NCBI RefSeq assembly: GCF_003287285.1
Contig: NZ_QMIG01000002.1
Span: 248,001 to 312,000, forward strand
Direction of reading: 5' to 3'
Length of the DNA stretch: 64,000 nucleotides
Source: Phytoactinopolyspora halophila
GTDB lineage: Bacteria; Actinomycetota; Actinomycetes; Jiangellales; Jiangellaceae
This document shows, in pieces, positions 18,229 through 30,362 of this stretch. A model generated the notes under the pieces. That model had not been told where the DNA came from, did no database searches, and saw only the letters and a list, made by a program, of their open reading frames with translations. Position 1 is the stretch's first letter; each line of letters begins with the position of its first letter. The translations under genes and the position numbers were made by a program.

Positions 18229-18254
18229 CACTGCCTACGATACGTCCTCTGTAC

Positions 18255-18486
18255 GGAACGGCGAGCCGGCGGACGAGGGACGAGGGAGCCGGCGAGCGTG
18301 ACCATTCAGCCCGGAACGGCGAGCCGGCGGACGAGGCACGAGGGAGCCGGCGAGCGTGACCATTCAGCCCCGAACGGCGAGCCGGCGGACGAGGCACGAG
18401 GGAGCCGGCGAGCGTGACCATTCAGCCCCGAACGGCGAGCCGGCGGACGAGGGACGAGGGAGCCGGCGAGCGTGACCATTCAGCCC
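18255..18486. repeat. Four tandem 58-bp repeats
   Basis: Four head-to-tail units (18255-18312, 18313-18370, 18371-18428, 18429-18486) differ at only a few positions: GG or CG at the first two bases and GGGACG or GGCACG in the middle. Each unit holds two GAGCCGGCG motifs and ends in GTGACCATTCAGCCC. The length is not a multiple of three and there are no spacers, so it is neither coding nor CRISPR. It lies directly upstream of the XPB-associated gene. Confidence 0.95.
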
Positions 18487-18516
18487 GCGTGGCCAGTCGC
18501 GAGGGAACGGGTGTTC

Positions 18517-18847: not shown

Positions 18848-19002
18848 GCATGGCAAAGCGTTCACCGCGCACGGCAGGGCCAGCTCACTGCGCACGGCAG
18901 GGCCGCTCGCCGTGCATGGCAGGGCCGCTCACCGCGCACGGCAGGGCCGCTCGCCGTGCATGGCAGGGACAGGTCAGCGGGCACGGCGGGGACAGGTCGG
19001 CG
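18848..19002. repeat. About seven degenerate 22-bp tandem repeats
   Basis: Units such as GCACGGCAGGGCCGCTCGCC followed by GT repeat with a period of 22 (21 to 23 in the first copies). GCATGG and GCACGG versions alternate, and the last two copies diverge to GGGACAGGTC. Twenty-two is not a multiple of three, so all reading frames are used equally and coding is unlikely. The stretch lies between the small minus-strand gene and the protease gene. Confidence 0.9.
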
Positions 19003-19325
19003 AGCAACAGACTGGAGAGTCGGCGTGGAGCCGACTGAGCAGTTAGCCGGCACGCGCAACGAGGTACAACAAGATCGACAGTCTGGGAAAGCGCCGGCCC
19101 CAGCCGCACGTGCGGGACGGCCGTGACTGCACACCGGCCACCCGTCGTTCAGGAATCGACATTAGGCGAGCATATGCCCCTAAATGGCCCACAAGATCAT
19201 TAAATGAACTCTCTTCGCATGTACCGCAATGTCCCTTATTGAAAAACTGCTACATTCGAGAAAATCCGGATATCGAGTACCGAGTGAATGTTCACCTCGC
19301 GCTCGCTTCGAATCCGGTCCGAACG
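19003..19325. other. AT-richer gap downstream of the protease gene
   Basis: No convincing gene. The part from about 19140 to 19290 is much richer in A and T than its surroundings, as is 18660-18760 on the other side of the 22-bp repeats. Together with the two repeat arrays this suggests foreign or recently rearranged DNA. Confidence 0.5.
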
Positions 19326-20570
19326 TCACGCGCGTGGGAAGACAACGCGCGGGCCGACACCGGGAAGCCCGGCAACAGCAGCCTCGTCGAGCACGATGTC
19401 ACGTGCCGTCGGAGCGTCGACGCCACGCTCCACCATCCGCCGCGCGATCATTCCAGCCACCACGGGTGCGGAGAACGATGTGCCGGACCACAACACGTGT
19501 CCGGTCCTCAACTCGGCGCTCGTTCCATCCAGGTACTCGTATCGACCGTTCGGAAACGGTAGAATCGCATGCTCGCCGGTCGCGTAGACATCCACCCAAT
19601 GTCCGACGTTGGACCATCCGGCGCGGGCGTCGCCACCCGTGGTGAGCGCGCCGACCGCCGTCGTCCACGGATAGGCGGCTGGCCAGAACGGCTTGTCCGA
19701 GCCCGCATTCCCGGCCGCAGCGATGATCACTGTGTTCGCATGGCGTCGCAGGACGCGGCGGTAGAACGCCGTGAAAGCCTTCGGGGACGTGCCGGCCCGG
19801 GTGTACATCCCGGCCTGGAGACTGATGACGTCCACCCCTATGGCAACGACTCGCTCAAGATCCTCGACGATAGTCAGCTCGTCCACAGCGCCGCCGACGA
19901 GGCAATCGTGGACCCGCACCGTTACCGAGTCGGAGCCGGACACCGACAGCAACCGGCCGGTCGTTGCGGTGCCGTGCCCGCCGTACGGGCGAATTGCGCC
20001 GTCGGCGTCGTACACCTCGTCGTCGGGCTCGAAATCGTCATGCACGGCACCGAAGCGCGAAAACCCGGAGGATTCCGCAACGGCCGGAACGTACCCCGTG
20101 TCGATGACCGCCAGCCGCGGGCGACCGGGCCCGTAGGGTTCACCGAGCAGGGGCACGGGCCCTTCCCACGGCAGCGGCTCGGTAACCGGACACATCACGA
20201 CGTTGTTCTGCGTGTCCAGCACGTGGTTGAGCGAGACCGTGTCCTCGTCCACCACCTCGGTGAGCTGGCCCACGAGATCGTCCGCGTCCCGCGATCCGAC
20301 GTCGAGGATCTTGAGGCCCACCGGTCCGTCCGCTATCGACGCCGGAGGATCCGCACCGATCTGGGTGAATGCCTCCAGGACGTCGGGCAGGTCGGAAGCA
20401 TCACATATCACCTGGTGGTTCCGGTACAGGTAGGAGACTTCCGTGCCGCTGGAATCCCACCGCGCGGCCAACGGGAACTCCCGGCCACGTGTTCGCTCCG
20501 CGCTGTTTCGTTGCAGCCGTTCGACCTCACGCGCGAGCGCCTCGGGTCTACTGCCTCGCACTGCCATCAT
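19326..20570 (-). CDS. Cytosolic subtilisin-like serine protease (S8), CHAT partner
   Basis: 414-residue S8 protease with an intact triad: Asp157 (AVIDTGY), His199 (GGHGT) and Ser365 (SGTSFSAP), plus the oxyanion Asn288 (AAAGN). There is no signal peptide or membrane anchor; instead about 145 residues of unrecognised N-terminal domain precede the catalytic part, possibly a regulatory or inhibitory prodomain. ATG (a second follows) with GGAGGGG 7 nt upstream. It is divergent by 112 bp from a TPR-CHAT protease gene. Pairs of proteases of this kind occur in bacterial conflict systems, so a proteolytic activation cascade is the working idea; the direction of activation is unknown. Confidence 0.85.
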   Translation of the reverse strand: MMAVRGSRPEALAREVERLQRNSAERTRGREFPLAARWDSSGTEVSYLYRNHQVICDASDLPDVLEAFTQIGADPPASIADGPVGLKILDVGSRDADDLVGQLTEVVDEDTVSLNHVLDTQNNVVMCPVTEPLPWEGPVPLLGEPYGPGRPRLAVIDTGYVPAVAESSGFSRFGAVHDDFEPDDEVYDADGAIRPYGGHGTATTGRLLSVSGSDSVTVRVHDCLVGGAVDELTIVEDLERVVAIGVDVISLQAGMYTRAGTSPKAFTAFYRRVLRRHANTVIIAAAGNAGSDKPFWPAAYPWTTAVGALTTGGDARAGWSNVGHWVDVYATGEHAILPFPNGRYEYLDGTSAELRTGHVLWSGTSFSAPVVAGMIARRMVERGVDAPTARDIVLDEAAVAGLPGVGPRVVFPRA

Positions 20571-20682
20571 TCAGCCCCTCCGTCGAAACGCGTACAAGCC
20601 CGGGACGATACCGGACGTATCGGAACGAATAGCGGATCGACACCATTGCCCGCTCACCACCGCATCCCTCTAGCATCGTCAG

Positions 20683-23286
20683 GTGCGGTTCGGGCCTGAC
20701 GAAATCGCGAACCTGCCGGCGCTTGCCATGTCCCATCCGAAGGCAGCGACGGAACGGGCTCGTGCAATATTGCATGCCCGTTCCCCGGCACGCGAGCGGA
20801 CGTACGCGCTGCACGCGCTCGGAATCATCGAACGCGACGGGGGGCGTGTCGGACCCGCGTTGCGATATTTTCGCCGGGGCCTGCGGATAGCGGAGGCCGA
20901 GTCGCTCGACGATCGACGCGTCGAACTCGGTGCAAGCTTGGGGACGGCCCTCGCCTTGGCGGGCCGCCGGCGCGAAGCTCTCGATGTGTTCGAGGCTGCC
21001 CTCGACGGCGCCACGCGGCACGAACGCGCACGGGTACTCGTGCGCCGCGGTGCCGCGCGCACATTCTTCGGCGACCACACGGGTGCATTCGACGACAATG
21101 ACGAAGCCGCCCGGATTCTCGGGGAACTGGACGAGCCGGTGTGGGAGTCCCGGGCACATCAGAATGCGGGTTCGGCACTGGTCAGCCTGGGCCGATTCGA
21201 CGAAGGCGAAGCTCGCCTCGCACGGGCGCAGGCGATGGCAGAGCAACACGGCGACCATTACAGCGCGATCGTCGCACTCAGCAGCCGAGGCGACTGCGCA
21301 CACCGGACCGGCCGCGTTCCCGATGCGCTGCGCATGCTCTACGAGGCCCGGCAGCGACACGAGCGTCTCGGCGTCGTCCCGCCCGAGATCCTGCGCGATC
21401 TCGCCGTCGTCCAGCTCTCTGCGGGATTGACAGAGGAGGCAGCGGCGGCAGCCGACCATCTCGTGGCCGTCCTGGAACAAGATCCCGCATCGGCGCTGCG
21501 GCGCGCAGACGGGTTCATCGCCGCCGCCATGGTCCATCTCGGGTCCGGCAATGCAGCACGTGCCATCGATCTCGCCCGCCGCGCCCGGAGATCCAGCCGG
21601 CGTCAAGGTCACGTCGAAGCCGAGCAGCACGCTCGGTTCGTCCTTCTCCGAGCACAGTTCGCCGCCGGAACCGTGACCAAGCGACATGCGCGGGCGGCTG
21701 CGGAACTCGCCGGAGAGCTCGGAGACCGATACGCCTCCGAACGGCTCGACGCGCTGGTACTCGCCGGACGGCTGGCCGTTGCTACCGGGCTCGACGACCT
21801 CGCCCGCTCGTGTTTCAGTGTCGCTGCTGGAGAGCGCCACCGGGGACCGGCGCTGCGCAGGGCAACCGCGTGGTATGCCCGGGCGCAGCTGGCGGCGTTG
21901 AACGGCGATCAACCCGGCATGCTCCGAGCCGGTACCCGTGGCCTGGACGTCCTCGACACGCACGCACTGTCCTTCGGCGCTCTGGAGCTGCGTGCCCGGG
22001 CGACGATTCACGGCACCGACCTGGCCGCGCTCGCGACCCGCCAGATGGCGGCCAACGGGACCCCGCGCCAGCTCTTGTACTGGATGGAGCGATGGCGCAG
22101 CACCGTGCATGCGTTGCCCGTGCCCCCGACGCCCGACGATCCGGTGCTTGCCGCTGAACTCGGCAGGCTGCGCGCGGCCAGTCGTGATCTGGCGTCAATG
22201 GCCGACGCCAGGCACGAAGCTCGCCGCAACACGGTCGAGGATCGGATCCGGCGCTACGTTCACTCCCGGCGCGGCGACACGTCCGCTCGACGACGCCGCT
22301 TCGACGTCGATGAACTGCTCGATGCCCTGGGTCGCGACACCACCATGGTCAGCATCATCGGCATCTCGGGTAAAGAGTTTCACATCACCGTCGCCCGACG
22401 GGGACGCGTCCGGCGTTTCCGGGGTGGCCGCGTCGATGACGTGTTCGCCGAGCTCGACCATGCCCGATTCGCACTGCGTTCCGTCGTGCTTGCCCCGGAA
22501 CCCGCTGCCAAGGGTCTGCTGGAGGCGCTCGACTCGGGCCTCGCTTCCCTCGAACGCACCGTTCTCGGGCCCGCTGCCCGCGAGCTCGGCGACGGGCCGG
22601 TGGTGCTGGTTCCTCCCTCCCGGTTACAAGCCGCGCCCTGGGGAGCCCTTCCATCACTACGCCGGCTGCCCGTCGCTGTCGCTCCCTCGGCCACCGCGTG
22701 GTTGCGAGCACGCGAGGCTGCGAGCTCCGAGCGTGCGGAGCATACCGTGCTGATCGCCGGCGACGATCTCGAGTCCTCGGGTGCCGAGGTCCCCGTGCTG
22801 GCCAGCATGTATCCGGACGCGACGGTACTCACCGGCGACGACGCCACGGTAGACGCGGCCTTGCGAACCATGGACGGGGCGAGCCTGGTGCACATCGGCG
22901 CGCATGGCCGTTACCGCGGGGACAGCCCGATGTTCTCGTCGCTCGAACTGGCCGACGGCCCGATCACGGTCCTGGATGTGGAGCAACTGGCCCGCCCGCC
23001 GCATCGGCTGTTGCTCACCGCATGTGAATCTGGCGTCGGCTCTCCCACCGGCGATGACGAACTCCTGGGGCTGGCCAGCACGCTCTCCGCCCTGGGAACC
23101 GCGGGGATTCTGGCCAGCATCGTGCCGATCAGCGACGCGGGTTCGGTCCCGTTCAGCGTGGCCATCCACGAACGAGTACGTGCTGGCGACGACCTTCCCA
23201 CGGCCCTCCTCGCCGCGCGTGAGGCCGCCGACGATCCGTTAAGCACGGCGACGTCGTGGTCGTTCCTCGGGCTCGGCGCTGCCTAG
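20683..23286 (+). CDS. TPR-CHAT caspase-like protease
   Basis: 867-residue protein. Residues from about 15 to 480 form a helical array of TPR-like repeats (LGTALALAGRRREALDVFEAAL, NAGSALVSLGRFDEGEARLA and others). The C-terminal third is a CHAT domain of the caspase clan with an intact catalytic dyad: His741 in HIGAHG and Cys781 in LLTACESG. There is no signal peptide. GTG start is the first in the frame after the divergent promoter gap; upstream sequence lacks a strong ribosome site. TPR regions usually sense a ligand or partner, so the repeats may trigger the protease. The cytosolic S8 protease next door is the obvious partner or substrate. Known relatives include the TPR-CHAT of type III-E CRISPR, but no CRISPR genes are here. 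Confidence 0.85.
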   Translation: MRFGPDEIANLPALAMSHPKAATERARAILHARSPARERTYALHALGIIERDGGRVGPALRYFRRGLRIAEAESLDDRRVELGASLGTALALAGRRREALDVFEAALDGATRHERARVLVRRGAARTFFGDHTGAFDDNDEAARILGELDEPVWESRAHQNAGSALVSLGRFDEGEARLARAQAMAEQHGDHYSAIVALSSRGDCAHRTGRVPDALRMLYEARQRHERLGVVPPEILRDLAVVQLSAGLTEEAAAAADHLVAVLEQDPASALRRADGFIAAAMVHLGSGNAARAIDLARRARRSSRRQGHVEAEQHARFVLLRAQFAAGTVTKRHARAAAELAGELGDRYASERLDALVLAGRLAVATGLDDLARSCFSVAAGERHRGPALRRATAWYARAQLAALNGDQPGMLRAGTRGLDVLDTHALSFGALELRARATIHGTDLAALATRQMAANGTPRQLLYWMERWRSTVHALPVPPTPDDPVLAAELGRLRAASRDLASMADARHEARRNTVEDRIRRYVHSRRGDTSARRRRFDVDELLDALGRDTTMVSIIGISGKEFHITVARRGRVRRFRGGRVDDVFAELDHARFALRSVVLAPEPAAKGLLEALDSGLASLERTVLGPAARELGDGPVVLVPPSRLQAAPWGALPSLRRLPVAVAPSATAWLRAREAASSERAEHTVLIAGDDLESSGAEVPVLASMYPDATVLTGDDATVDAALRTMDGASLVHIGAHGRYRGDSPMFSSLELADGPITVLDVEQLARPPHRLLLTACESGVGSPTGDDELLGLASTLSALGTAGILASIVPISDAGSVPFSVAIHERVRAGDDLPTALLAAREAADDPLSTATSWSFLGLGAA

Positions 23287-27200: not shown

Positions 27201-30200
27201 GTGGACACATTGGGCACGCAGGCGATCCGGGAACGCGTGCTGGCGGCCTGGACCGCGTCGCCGGCTCGATTTCGCGAGGACGCCAACGCCGAGGAAGAGC
27301 TGGCTCTCGGCGCCTATCGGGACCGGCTCGTCGTGGAACTGGCTCAGAACGCCGCGGACGCGGCACTTCGGCACGGCACACCCGGACGGTTGCTCCTGCG
27401 CCTCGACGGCACCACCTTGCTCGCCGCGAACACTGGCGCGGCATTGGACTCCGAGGGGGTCGAAGGGCTGTCCACGCTGAGGGCGTCGACCAAGCGCGCC
27501 GTGGCGCCGTCGAGCGGGGACCGCCACAAGGACGACGAGGACGGCGAGCACGCCGCCACCGAACCCGTCGGGCGCTTCGGGGTCGGGTTCGCGGCGGTCC
27601 TGGCCGTGACGGACGAACCGCTGATCATCTCTGGGCATGACGTCGTGTACTGGTCCAGGTCCCGCACCCGCGACATCGTCGCGCAGCTTCCCGAGCTCGC
27701 TCCCCAGATCGCCGAGCGCGGGCGTGCCGTTCCCGTGCTCCGGCTGCCGTTCGCGACCGATCGGGAAAGCATGCGCGACGTGCTACCGGACGCCGTCCAC
27801 ATCCCCGGACTCGATCAGATCCTCGATACTCACGACACGGCGGTGCTACTGCCGCTGCGCGACGACGACGCGGTGGCGACCGCGCGGCGGCTGATCGATG
27901 CCATCGACGACGCGCTGCTCCTCGTCCTTCCCGCCCTTGGCGAGATCGTCATCGAGTCCGGCACCGGGCGCCGCACTCTCACCGCGAGCTCGGCGACCGT
28001 ACTCGACCACGCCGGTGGAATCTGGGAGCGGCACGTCGGTGCGCGGCGATGGCGCCTGGCACATGCGACGGGCAGCGCATCGGCGGAGCTACTCGCCGAC
28101 CGTCCGGTCGAGGAGCGCGCCCGGCCGCAGTGGTCGGTCACGGTCGCGGTGCCCGTGGACGACGGGGAGCACCCGGCGCGCCTTCCGGGCACCCAGGGGA
28201 CAGCCGAGGGCGAGCGGCCGCCGTCGACGGTCGTCCACGCTCCGACTCCTACGGACGATGCCACCGCCCTTCCAGCACTTGTCGTCGGCACCTTCCCGCT
28301 CGACTCGACCCGAAGGCGCATCGCGCCCGGACCGCTGACCGACCATCTCGCGAGCCAGGTGGGTGAGACGTACGCGCGCCTCGTGGCCTCGTTCTCGGCA
28401 CCGTCCGCGCTGGCGCTCGTCCCCGGACCGGTAGGTGAGAGCGAGCTGGACGCCAGCCTGCACCGCTCGGTACGCGAAGCGCTGTCGCGCACCCCGTTCG
28501 TCCCCGCCGCGCGCGCAGGCGAGGCGGGGAGCGAGACAGAGATCGTCGCGGGTAGGCGCCTGCGGCCGACAGAGGTACAGCTGGTCGACGGCCTGGAACG
28601 GGCAGCGGATCCATCCGCGCTGGCCACCGTCGTGCCCGGGCTGCCGGCTGCGGGCTGGTGGCAACGTGGACCATTGACCAGGCTCGGCGCCACGATCACC
28701 GCGCTGGCCGACCTGATCGACGAGCTCGCCACGGTGAACCTGCCCGCCTCCCGCTGGCGGGAGATCTACGCCGCGTTGGACGGTGCCGATCCGGAGGCGC
28801 TCGGGGCGCTACCCGTCCCCCTCGCTGACGGACGCCTGGGACGAGGACCCCGCGGCGTGCTCCTGCCCGGCGAGGTGGACGCGGACCTTCTCGCCACCTT
28901 CCAGCTCCGCGTGGCCGCACCGGAGGCCGTACATCCGCTGCTGGCCCGTCTCGGCGCGGTTCCGGCAACGCCGTCGTCCGTGCTGCGCGATCCATCGGTG
29001 CGCGCCGCCATCGACACCGCCGACGACGATCGTGCGCGCGAGCTCGCGGACGCCGTCCTCCAGCTCGTGGCAGCCGGTGACCTGACGGCTGCCGACGAGC
29101 CGTGGCTGGCCGAGCTGCCCGTTCCCGATGCGACCCAGACGTTGGCCCCCGCAGCCGAGTTGCTGCTTCCGGAGTCACCGCTGGTGGCCGTGCTCGATGT
29201 CGAACCCGCCGAGTACACGGTGGATGCCGACGTCGTGAACCGGCACGGGCGTGAGGTACTCCGCGCCGTCGGCGTGCGGGAGAGTTTCGCCGTCGTGCAG
29301 GAGAACGATGTCCCCCTCGATCAGGAGCTCTGGCACGATCTCGACGGCGAGGACACGTGGGTCGAGGCCACGCTGCGCGATCTCCCTGACGACGACCTGC
29401 CGCCCCTCATCCCGACGTTCCGGGCGATACGTGACCTCGATCTCGTCCATGATGGGTCCTGGGCCCGCGCGCTCGGCTTGCTGGCCAGCGATCCCGAGGC
29501 ACGTCCGGCCATCGTCGAGCCCATGTTCGCCGTGACATCCGACGGCGTGCGCCACGCGGCCGAGCCATACAGCGCCTGGTGGTTGCGCCGACATGCGCGA
29601 TGGGAGGGCTGGCGGCTGGACGAACTCTGCACCCATGACGCCACCCCGACGCTGCGTGCCTTGCTGCGCCCCGTGGCACTCGACACCGACCTGGCGATCG
29701 ATACCACGTTCGCTTCAGCGCTCGGAATCGCCCGGTCGCTCGCCGACGTTCGCACTCGCACACTGCTGGAACGCCTTGGCGACCCGGCCGTTTCCCTGAG
29801 CTCCACCCAGCTGGTCGAGATCTACACCGAGCTCGCCACGCGGTCACCGGACACTGCCGAACCACCGCAGTGGCTGCGCGTCCCGGATGGCGCCACCACC
29901 CGGCTGGTCGACGCGCGCGATGCCGTGGTCTGCGCGGAGCCGCACTGGCTCCAGCTGGAACTGCCCGCCGTCGTTCCCGGCCCACCCCGCCTCGCCGACC
30001 TCTTGGAAATCGACCTGGCCGAGGAACGATACGACGCCGGGCCCAGCCACGACGGCCGGCAGCTGCCCGTGCCGGAGCTCACACATGCGGTCCTCGACGA
30101 AGCGCCACGCAGCTATGTGGAGCACGACGATCTCGTCGTCGCCGGCCAATCGGTCGACTGGTGGATCGACCGGGCGCACGGCCACAGCACGGTGCACGCG

Positions 30201-30362
30201 TCCACGCTGGACGGTCTCGCGCGTGGGCTCGCCTGGATGGCGGGCGCGTGGGAACGGCGATGGCTGCTCGCTCAAGTTTTGCAGGATCCAGCGGCACTGA
30301 CCGTTGCGCTGCTGGAAGAGTCCTTCACCGACCGCGCCGAACGGCACTCCAACTCCTGGTGA
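27201..30362 (+). CDS. Sacsin/Hsp90-like ATPase-domain protein
   Basis: 1053-residue soluble protein. The N-terminal 250 residues form a GHKL (Hsp90-like) ATP-binding domain: VELAQNAADAALR (Asn50 and Asp53), AANTGAALDSEGV and GRFGVGFAAVLAVTDEP. The remaining 800 residues have no recognisable enzyme motifs. The N-terminal domain is closest to that of sacsin, a chaperone-like protein, and members in actinobacteria are annotated as sacsin N-terminal ATPase-like. GTG start, 78 bp after DUF3027. A role in protein quality control is inference. Confidence 0.8.
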   Translation: MDTLGTQAIRERVLAAWTASPARFREDANAEEELALGAYRDRLVVELAQNAADAALRHGTPGRLLLRLDGTTLLAANTGAALDSEGVEGLSTLRASTKRAVAPSSGDRHKDDEDGEHAATEPVGRFGVGFAAVLAVTDEPLIISGHDVVYWSRSRTRDIVAQLPELAPQIAERGRAVPVLRLPFATDRESMRDVLPDAVHIPGLDQILDTHDTAVLLPLRDDDAVATARRLIDAIDDALLLVLPALGEIVIESGTGRRTLTASSATVLDHAGGIWERHVGARRWRLAHATGSASAELLADRPVEERARPQWSVTVAVPVDDGEHPARLPGTQGTAEGERPPSTVVHAPTPTDDATALPALVVGTFPLDSTRRRIAPGPLTDHLASQVGETYARLVASFSAPSALALVPGPVGESELDASLHRSVREALSRTPFVPAARAGEAGSETEIVAGRRLRPTEVQLVDGLERAADPSALATVVPGLPAAGWWQRGPLTRLGATITALADLIDELATVNLPASRWREIYAALDGADPEALGALPVPLADGRLGRGPRGVLLPGEVDADLLATFQLRVAAPEAVHPLLARLGAVPATPSSVLRDPSVRAAIDTADDDRARELADAVLQLVAAGDLTAADEPWLAELPVPDATQTLAPAAELLLPESPLVAVLDVEPAEYTVDADVVNRHGREVLRAVGVRESFAVVQENDVPLDQELWHDLDGEDTWVEATLRDLPDDDLPPLIPTFRAIRDLDLVHDGSWARALGLLASDPEARPAIVEPMFAVTSDGVRHAAEPYSAWWLRRHARWEGWRLDELCTHDATPTLRALLRPVALDTDLAIDTTFASALGIARSLADVRTRTLLERLGDPAVSLSSTQLVEIYTELATRSPDTAEPPQWLRVPDGATTRLVDARDAVVCAEPHWLQLELPAVVPGPPRLADLLEIDLAEERYDAGPSHDGRQLPVPELTHAVLDEAPRSYVEHDDLVVAGQSVDWWIDRAHGHSTVHASTLDGLARGLAWMAGAWERRWLLAQVLQDPAALTVALLEESFTDRAERHSNSW

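Follow-up and report, generated by a model that had tools for sequence, protein, structure and literature searches.

The divergent pair of protease genes carried by a 64,000-nucleotide stretch of the Phytoactinopolyspora halophila genome (the window) is probably the protease half of a four-gene module, composed of an ECF sigma factor, a small soluble anti-sigma-like protein (SM), a TPR-CHAT protease and a subtilisin-like S8 protease, in which the proteases would release the sigma factor from SM. Most likely, the module uses proteolysis to activate a set of genes and does not kill the cell. The features of the pair, in window coordinates, are as follows:

19326..20570, minus strand: S8 (subtilisin-like) protease of 414 aa, the only copy in this genome, identified by Pfam and an AlphaFold model
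20220..20471, minus strand: S8 N-terminal domain, residues 34-117, propeptide-like with the order beta-alpha-beta-beta-alpha-beta in the secondary structure of the model
20571..20682, no strand: divergent intergenic region between the S8 and CHAT genes, 112 bp
20671-20676: -10 box TAGCAT, 6 nt upstream of the CHAT GTG start, aligned in 16 family members
20683..23286, plus strand: TPR-CHAT protein, 867 aa, with TPR repeats in the N-terminal half and a CHAT cysteine-protease domain at residues 623-849

Both open reading frames and the 112-bp spacer (20571-20682) lie where the original prediction had placed them. Pfam analysis assigned a Peptidase_S8 domain (E 6e-19) to the first protein, and CHAT (E 4e-22) and TPR_12 (E 7e-12) domains to the second. 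The catalytic residues Asp157, His199 and Ser365 of the S8 protein, together with the oxyanion residue Asn288, were invariant in 74/74 homologues, and His741 (22903-22905) and Cys781 (23023-23025) of the CHAT domain were found in 92/92 readable homologues; the claim that both active sites are intact was thus correct down to the residue numbers. Neither protein has a hydrophobic N-terminus or, as had also been predicted, a signal peptide, and signal peptides were absent from nearly all S8 proteins across the window's class. The AlphaFold model of the S8 protein (pLDDT 91, pTM 0.92) has a subtilisin fold with a prodomain and a linker of low confidence at residues 122-125, and its top PDB match was unprocessed pro-subtilisin E (3whi), across 403 columns. 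Because a propeptide-like domain precedes the catalytic domain and pro-subtilisin E is the best match, the S8 protease probably starts out as an inhibited zymogen. At several loci of the window's family (L036, L039, L040, L041 and L042), a second S8 paralogue stands in tandem with the first, with the triad intact where aligned.

The conservation of the pair was analyzed in 22 genomes of the window's family and 297 genomes of its class. Within the family, S8 and CHAT were both present in 17/22 genomes and both absent from three (G017-G019) that are at least 93% complete; another genome without the two genes (G003) is only 75% complete, and G004 carries a distant tandem version of the pair. When clear CHAT loci were defined by E<=1e-60 and S8 was counted as linked within 3.5 kb, S8 adjoined CHAT in 54 of the 59 clear CHAT loci of the class. 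Co-occurrence of the two families across genomes, which had been set beforehand as the test of the original prediction, therefore exceeds chance, and S8 and CHAT are a real, ancient pair: a conserved unit whose catalytic sites are both intact by sequence and whose proteins are mostly cytoplasmic.

Around the pair, gene order is shared among the family members whose loci are extended, and runs helicase-C/WYL, S8, CHAT, HAD, cold-shock protein, MFS, DUF3027 and sacsin-like. The sacsin-type ATP-binding protein (window 27201-30362) resembles the PADLOC model TmtA (2e-31) and, since it is syntenic in the family, is probably no defence gene here. The surroundings had been described as repeat-rich and AT-richer. 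Repeats are indeed present, as a tandem repeat of four 58-bp units, 97% alike, which lies at 18254-18487 between the helicase gene and S8, and as a 22-bp tandem array of about six copies (18862-19006) downstream of S8, where there is no convincing gene. The 58-bp unit also forms arrays elsewhere in the genome (contigs 12, 23 and 59, 75-84% identity); because it belongs to a genome-dispersed family, the repeats were ruled out as part of the system. As to base composition, only a slight dip was found (63.6% GC at 19-20 kb versus about 67%), and the GC3 of both S8 and CHAT resembles that of the neighbouring genes.

This setting bears on the proposal, made from the window alone, of a two-protease cascade with a trigger-sensing TPR part. 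Read as a conflict or cell-death system, it would have the TPR part sense phage or damage and CHAT activate S8, and cell proteins would be destroyed. Fungal death systems linked to gasdermins do contain CHAT and S8 domains (PMC12881547), and the zymogen-like appearance of S8 would suit such a role. However, the pair sits at a fixed syntenic core location where defence neighbours are absent, its partners are a sigma factor and SM, and one clade drops S8 alone. PADLOC returned no match for the CHAT, sigma and SM proteins of the window's genome and, for S8, only a generic subtilase hit that was weak, and mobile-element searches gave two weak plasmid matches and one weak phage match, so that the genes are nearly absent from plasmids and phages. 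Given the synteny and the outcome of the PADLOC and mobile-element searches, we rejected the defence or cell-death assignment and consider it very improbable.

Outside the window's family, the pair is accompanied by an ECF sigma factor of about 190 aa and by SM of about 150 aa. Among 79 CHAT loci outside the family, SM was found in 71, sigma in 67, S8 in 58 and all three in 45, and among the CHAT-positive genomes outside the family, 64/65 carried SM (Fisher 4e-44, uncorrected for kinship). Sigma and SM were never on opposite strands and mostly overlapped by 4 nt, and the order and orientation of S8 and CHAT were reshuffled between families. A contig scan started from a Streptomyces sequence returned Streptomyces and one 'Actinobacteria bacterium' record. 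In Streptomyces all four genes are present in 72/80 loci, with a tight S8-sigma-SM operon divergent from CHAT, in which S8 often shares a 4-nt overlap with sigma. A free-standing two-gene system was thus ruled out, as sigma and SM belong to it. The window's family has no linkage between sigma-SM and S8-CHAT, and the window's genome carries the sigma and SM genes at a second locus (gene starts outside the window are approximate, being taken from a simple codon-usage gene caller):

L127:9486-10067, minus strand: sigma gene of the window's genome, on contig G000:C6
L127:9007-9486, minus strand: SM gene of the window's genome, G000:C6:93010-93486

The sigma protein of this locus is of the ECF type (TIGR02937 1.6e-25, Sigma70_r2 4e-15, Sigma70_r4 3e-5). 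SM was present in 17/17 family genomes with the pair, and sigma adjoined SM in every locus examined. Of the family genomes without the pair, G017-G019 lack all four genes, and in them both loci are closed up with intact flanks and no remnants: at the pair locus HAD adjoins the helicase gene, and at the sigma-SM locus a 368-aa gene adjoins the gene that elsewhere comes after sigma. Nothing speaks more strongly for a joint action of the four genes than this shared loss at two unlinked sites, although it may reflect a single evolutionary event. The four genes are therefore not only conserved and coupled but also inherited and lost together, even where they are unlinked.

In the structure model of SM, residues 9-58 form a helical hairpin and residues 69-140 a beta-sandwich of seven strands, with an uncertain linker at 51-64, and the protein has no membrane segment. 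Its Pfam match is weak and to a carboxypeptidase regulatory-like domain, a name that denotes a fold rather than an enzyme. The fold search gave generic beta-sandwich matches only, none under E 0.001, and the SM sequence had no significant match among PDB chains. Profile searches recognised no anti-sigma domain in SM of the window's class, in which the N-terminal part lacks the length of a classical anti-sigma domain. In family f56, which belongs to another class of the phylum (L287-L301), the four genes are together again, and the SM homologue, linked to SM by profile comparison (A1 vs A6, probability 98%, E 5e-14), is longer at the N-terminus. This N-terminal region matched the NCBIfam anti-sigma factor model NF052375 in 11/15 proteins, with a best value of 5e-5 that is below the curated cut-off, and weak RskA_N and zf-HC2 matches, likewise below curated cut-offs, were also obtained. 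Since the N-terminus of this deeper homologue resembles anti-sigma factors, SM is a probable candidate for a soluble anti-sigma factor.

The gene set fits the group ECF54 (Casas-Pastor 2021, Huang 2015, via PMC8999054), with which we compared it by described gene context: the passage on ECF54 in PMC8999054 describes an actinobacterial ECF sigma factor with carboxypeptidase, subtilase and CHAT neighbours, experimentally unstudied, its regulation being guessed from gene context. According to the same passage, these conserved neighbours would act without an anti-sigma factor, the proteases degrading sigma until a signal stops the degradation. The same gene set was found here, a point in favour of that view. 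However, SM weakly matches a carboxypeptidase regulatory-like fold, it is encoded directly after sigma, the usual place of sigma partners, and in f56 its homologue is similar to anti-sigma factors. On these grounds we regard regulation by sigma degradation as unlikely. To judge from the model, the "carboxypeptidase" of ECF54 is no carboxypeptidase but a helical segment joined to a beta-sandwich.

The place of S8 in the module is less constant. One clade (L239, L241, L243, L249, L250, L254, L255 and L262-L269), with 15 members and well supported on the CHAT tree, has no S8 near the module and keeps a sigma-SM-CHAT operon. On this tree S8 looks ancestral and later lost in the one clade, and CHAT, SM and sigma form the constant core of the module. 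Because the clade keeps the other three genes, S8 is no obligatory step. The S8 proteins of f56 mostly begin with a hydrophobic N-terminus and so probably do not meet SM in the cytoplasm, which speaks against a single universal role of S8. Both observations, dispensability in one clade and the hydrophobic N-termini of f56, would agree with S8 being an output, made or activated within the response, while CHAT alone controls SM and sigma. Against this stand the near-universal lack of a signal peptide in the S8 proteins of the window's class and the frequent 4-nt overlap of S8 with sigma in Streptomyces. A third point against it is the distribution of SM helix 1, which was lost in 12/20 loci without S8 and in 0/63 loci with S8, essentially within one clade; this gives a hint that the helix concerns S8 and that S8 and SM are directly linked. 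An output role of S8 therefore appears possible but rather doubtful.

Under the favoured reading, in which the proteases release sigma from SM, the N-terminal helices of SM would bind the sigma factor and thereby inactivate it. In the CHAT protein, the TPR part would sense a cytoplasmic signal and activate the CHAT protease, which would then cleave SM, either directly or via the S8 zymogen and probably in the flexible linker of SM, and the released sigma factor would alter transcription. What the analysis shows are the four genes with their conservation, coupling and joint inheritance, the intact active sites, the two-domain, soluble build of SM and the anti-sigma similarity of its deeper homologue; that SM binds sigma and is cleaved, which protease acts first and what they respond to is inferred. 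The promoters are consistent with this scheme and prove nothing: because the conserved TAGCAT box ends 6 nt before the GTG, the CHAT transcript is probably leaderless and starts at 20683, and the box is of the ordinary type (TANNNT) near the start, as is that of sigma, judged by eye. No sigma-specific promoter was found at the S8-CHAT pair. Ordinary boxes of this kind would fit post-translational control.

Setting aside the papers that define ECF54, the split arrangement and the joint loss appear to be new with respect to the literature, as does the assignment of a probable anti-sigma function to the small partner and the observation that a second class has the module too. A concrete inhibitor candidate can now be named for a group whose regulation had been a guess, and the proposed switch is testable with four proteins. 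If the scheme is true, Streptomyces would be a tractable host for finding the signal.

Several known systems can be compared with the module. The window's S8 protein shares the triad, the oxyanion Asn and a propeptide-like domain with the pro-subtilisins of family S8, but it has no signal peptide and is encoded alongside a CHAT protease. With soluble anti-sigma factors of the zf-HC2 or RskA_N type, SM shares a sigma gene directly upstream, the lack of a membrane segment and, in the f56 homologue, the putative N-terminal helices; unlike them, it has no zinc ligands, its N-terminus is shortened in the window's class, and it carries a C-terminal beta-sandwich domain. The likeness to ECF54, as far as the passage in PMC8999054 describes that group, lies in an ECF sigma factor with subtilase, CHAT and 'carboxypeptidase'(-regulatory-like) neighbours, for which proteolytic control is proposed there. 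Such genes stand near sigma in the related families, whereas in the window's family they form unlinked halves and are split over two loci; a further difference concerns the small partner, which we take to be probably a soluble anti-sigma factor and for which the published passage assumes no such role.

A parallel in logic would be Craspase, or CASP, of type III-E, in which an ECF sigma factor is inhibited by Csx30 and this inhibitor is cleaved by Csx29, a TPR-CHAT protease (PMC10028731); by analogy, the module's TPR-CHAT protein would cut a sigma inhibitor. The two differ in that no Cas7-11 or CRISPR was found among the neighbours identified here, which are housekeeping-type genes, in that the window's CHAT protein scored 15.7 bits against a Csx29 cut-off of 300 and so falls outside Csx29, and in that the module adds an S8 protease and an SM without significant PDB sequence match. 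We put forward, tentatively and with more doubt than confidence, that the module is a widespread, CRISPR-independent counterpart of Craspase in Actinobacteria, in which TPR-CHAT, together with S8, would open a soluble anti-sigma factor (the ECF54 'carboxypeptidase') and free an ECF54-type sigma factor, and that it is a possible source of Csx29, Csx30 and CASP-sigma. If CHAT does open the inhibitor, caspase-like cutting of anti-sigma factors would be a general signalling device of bacteria rather than a peculiarity of CRISPR systems.
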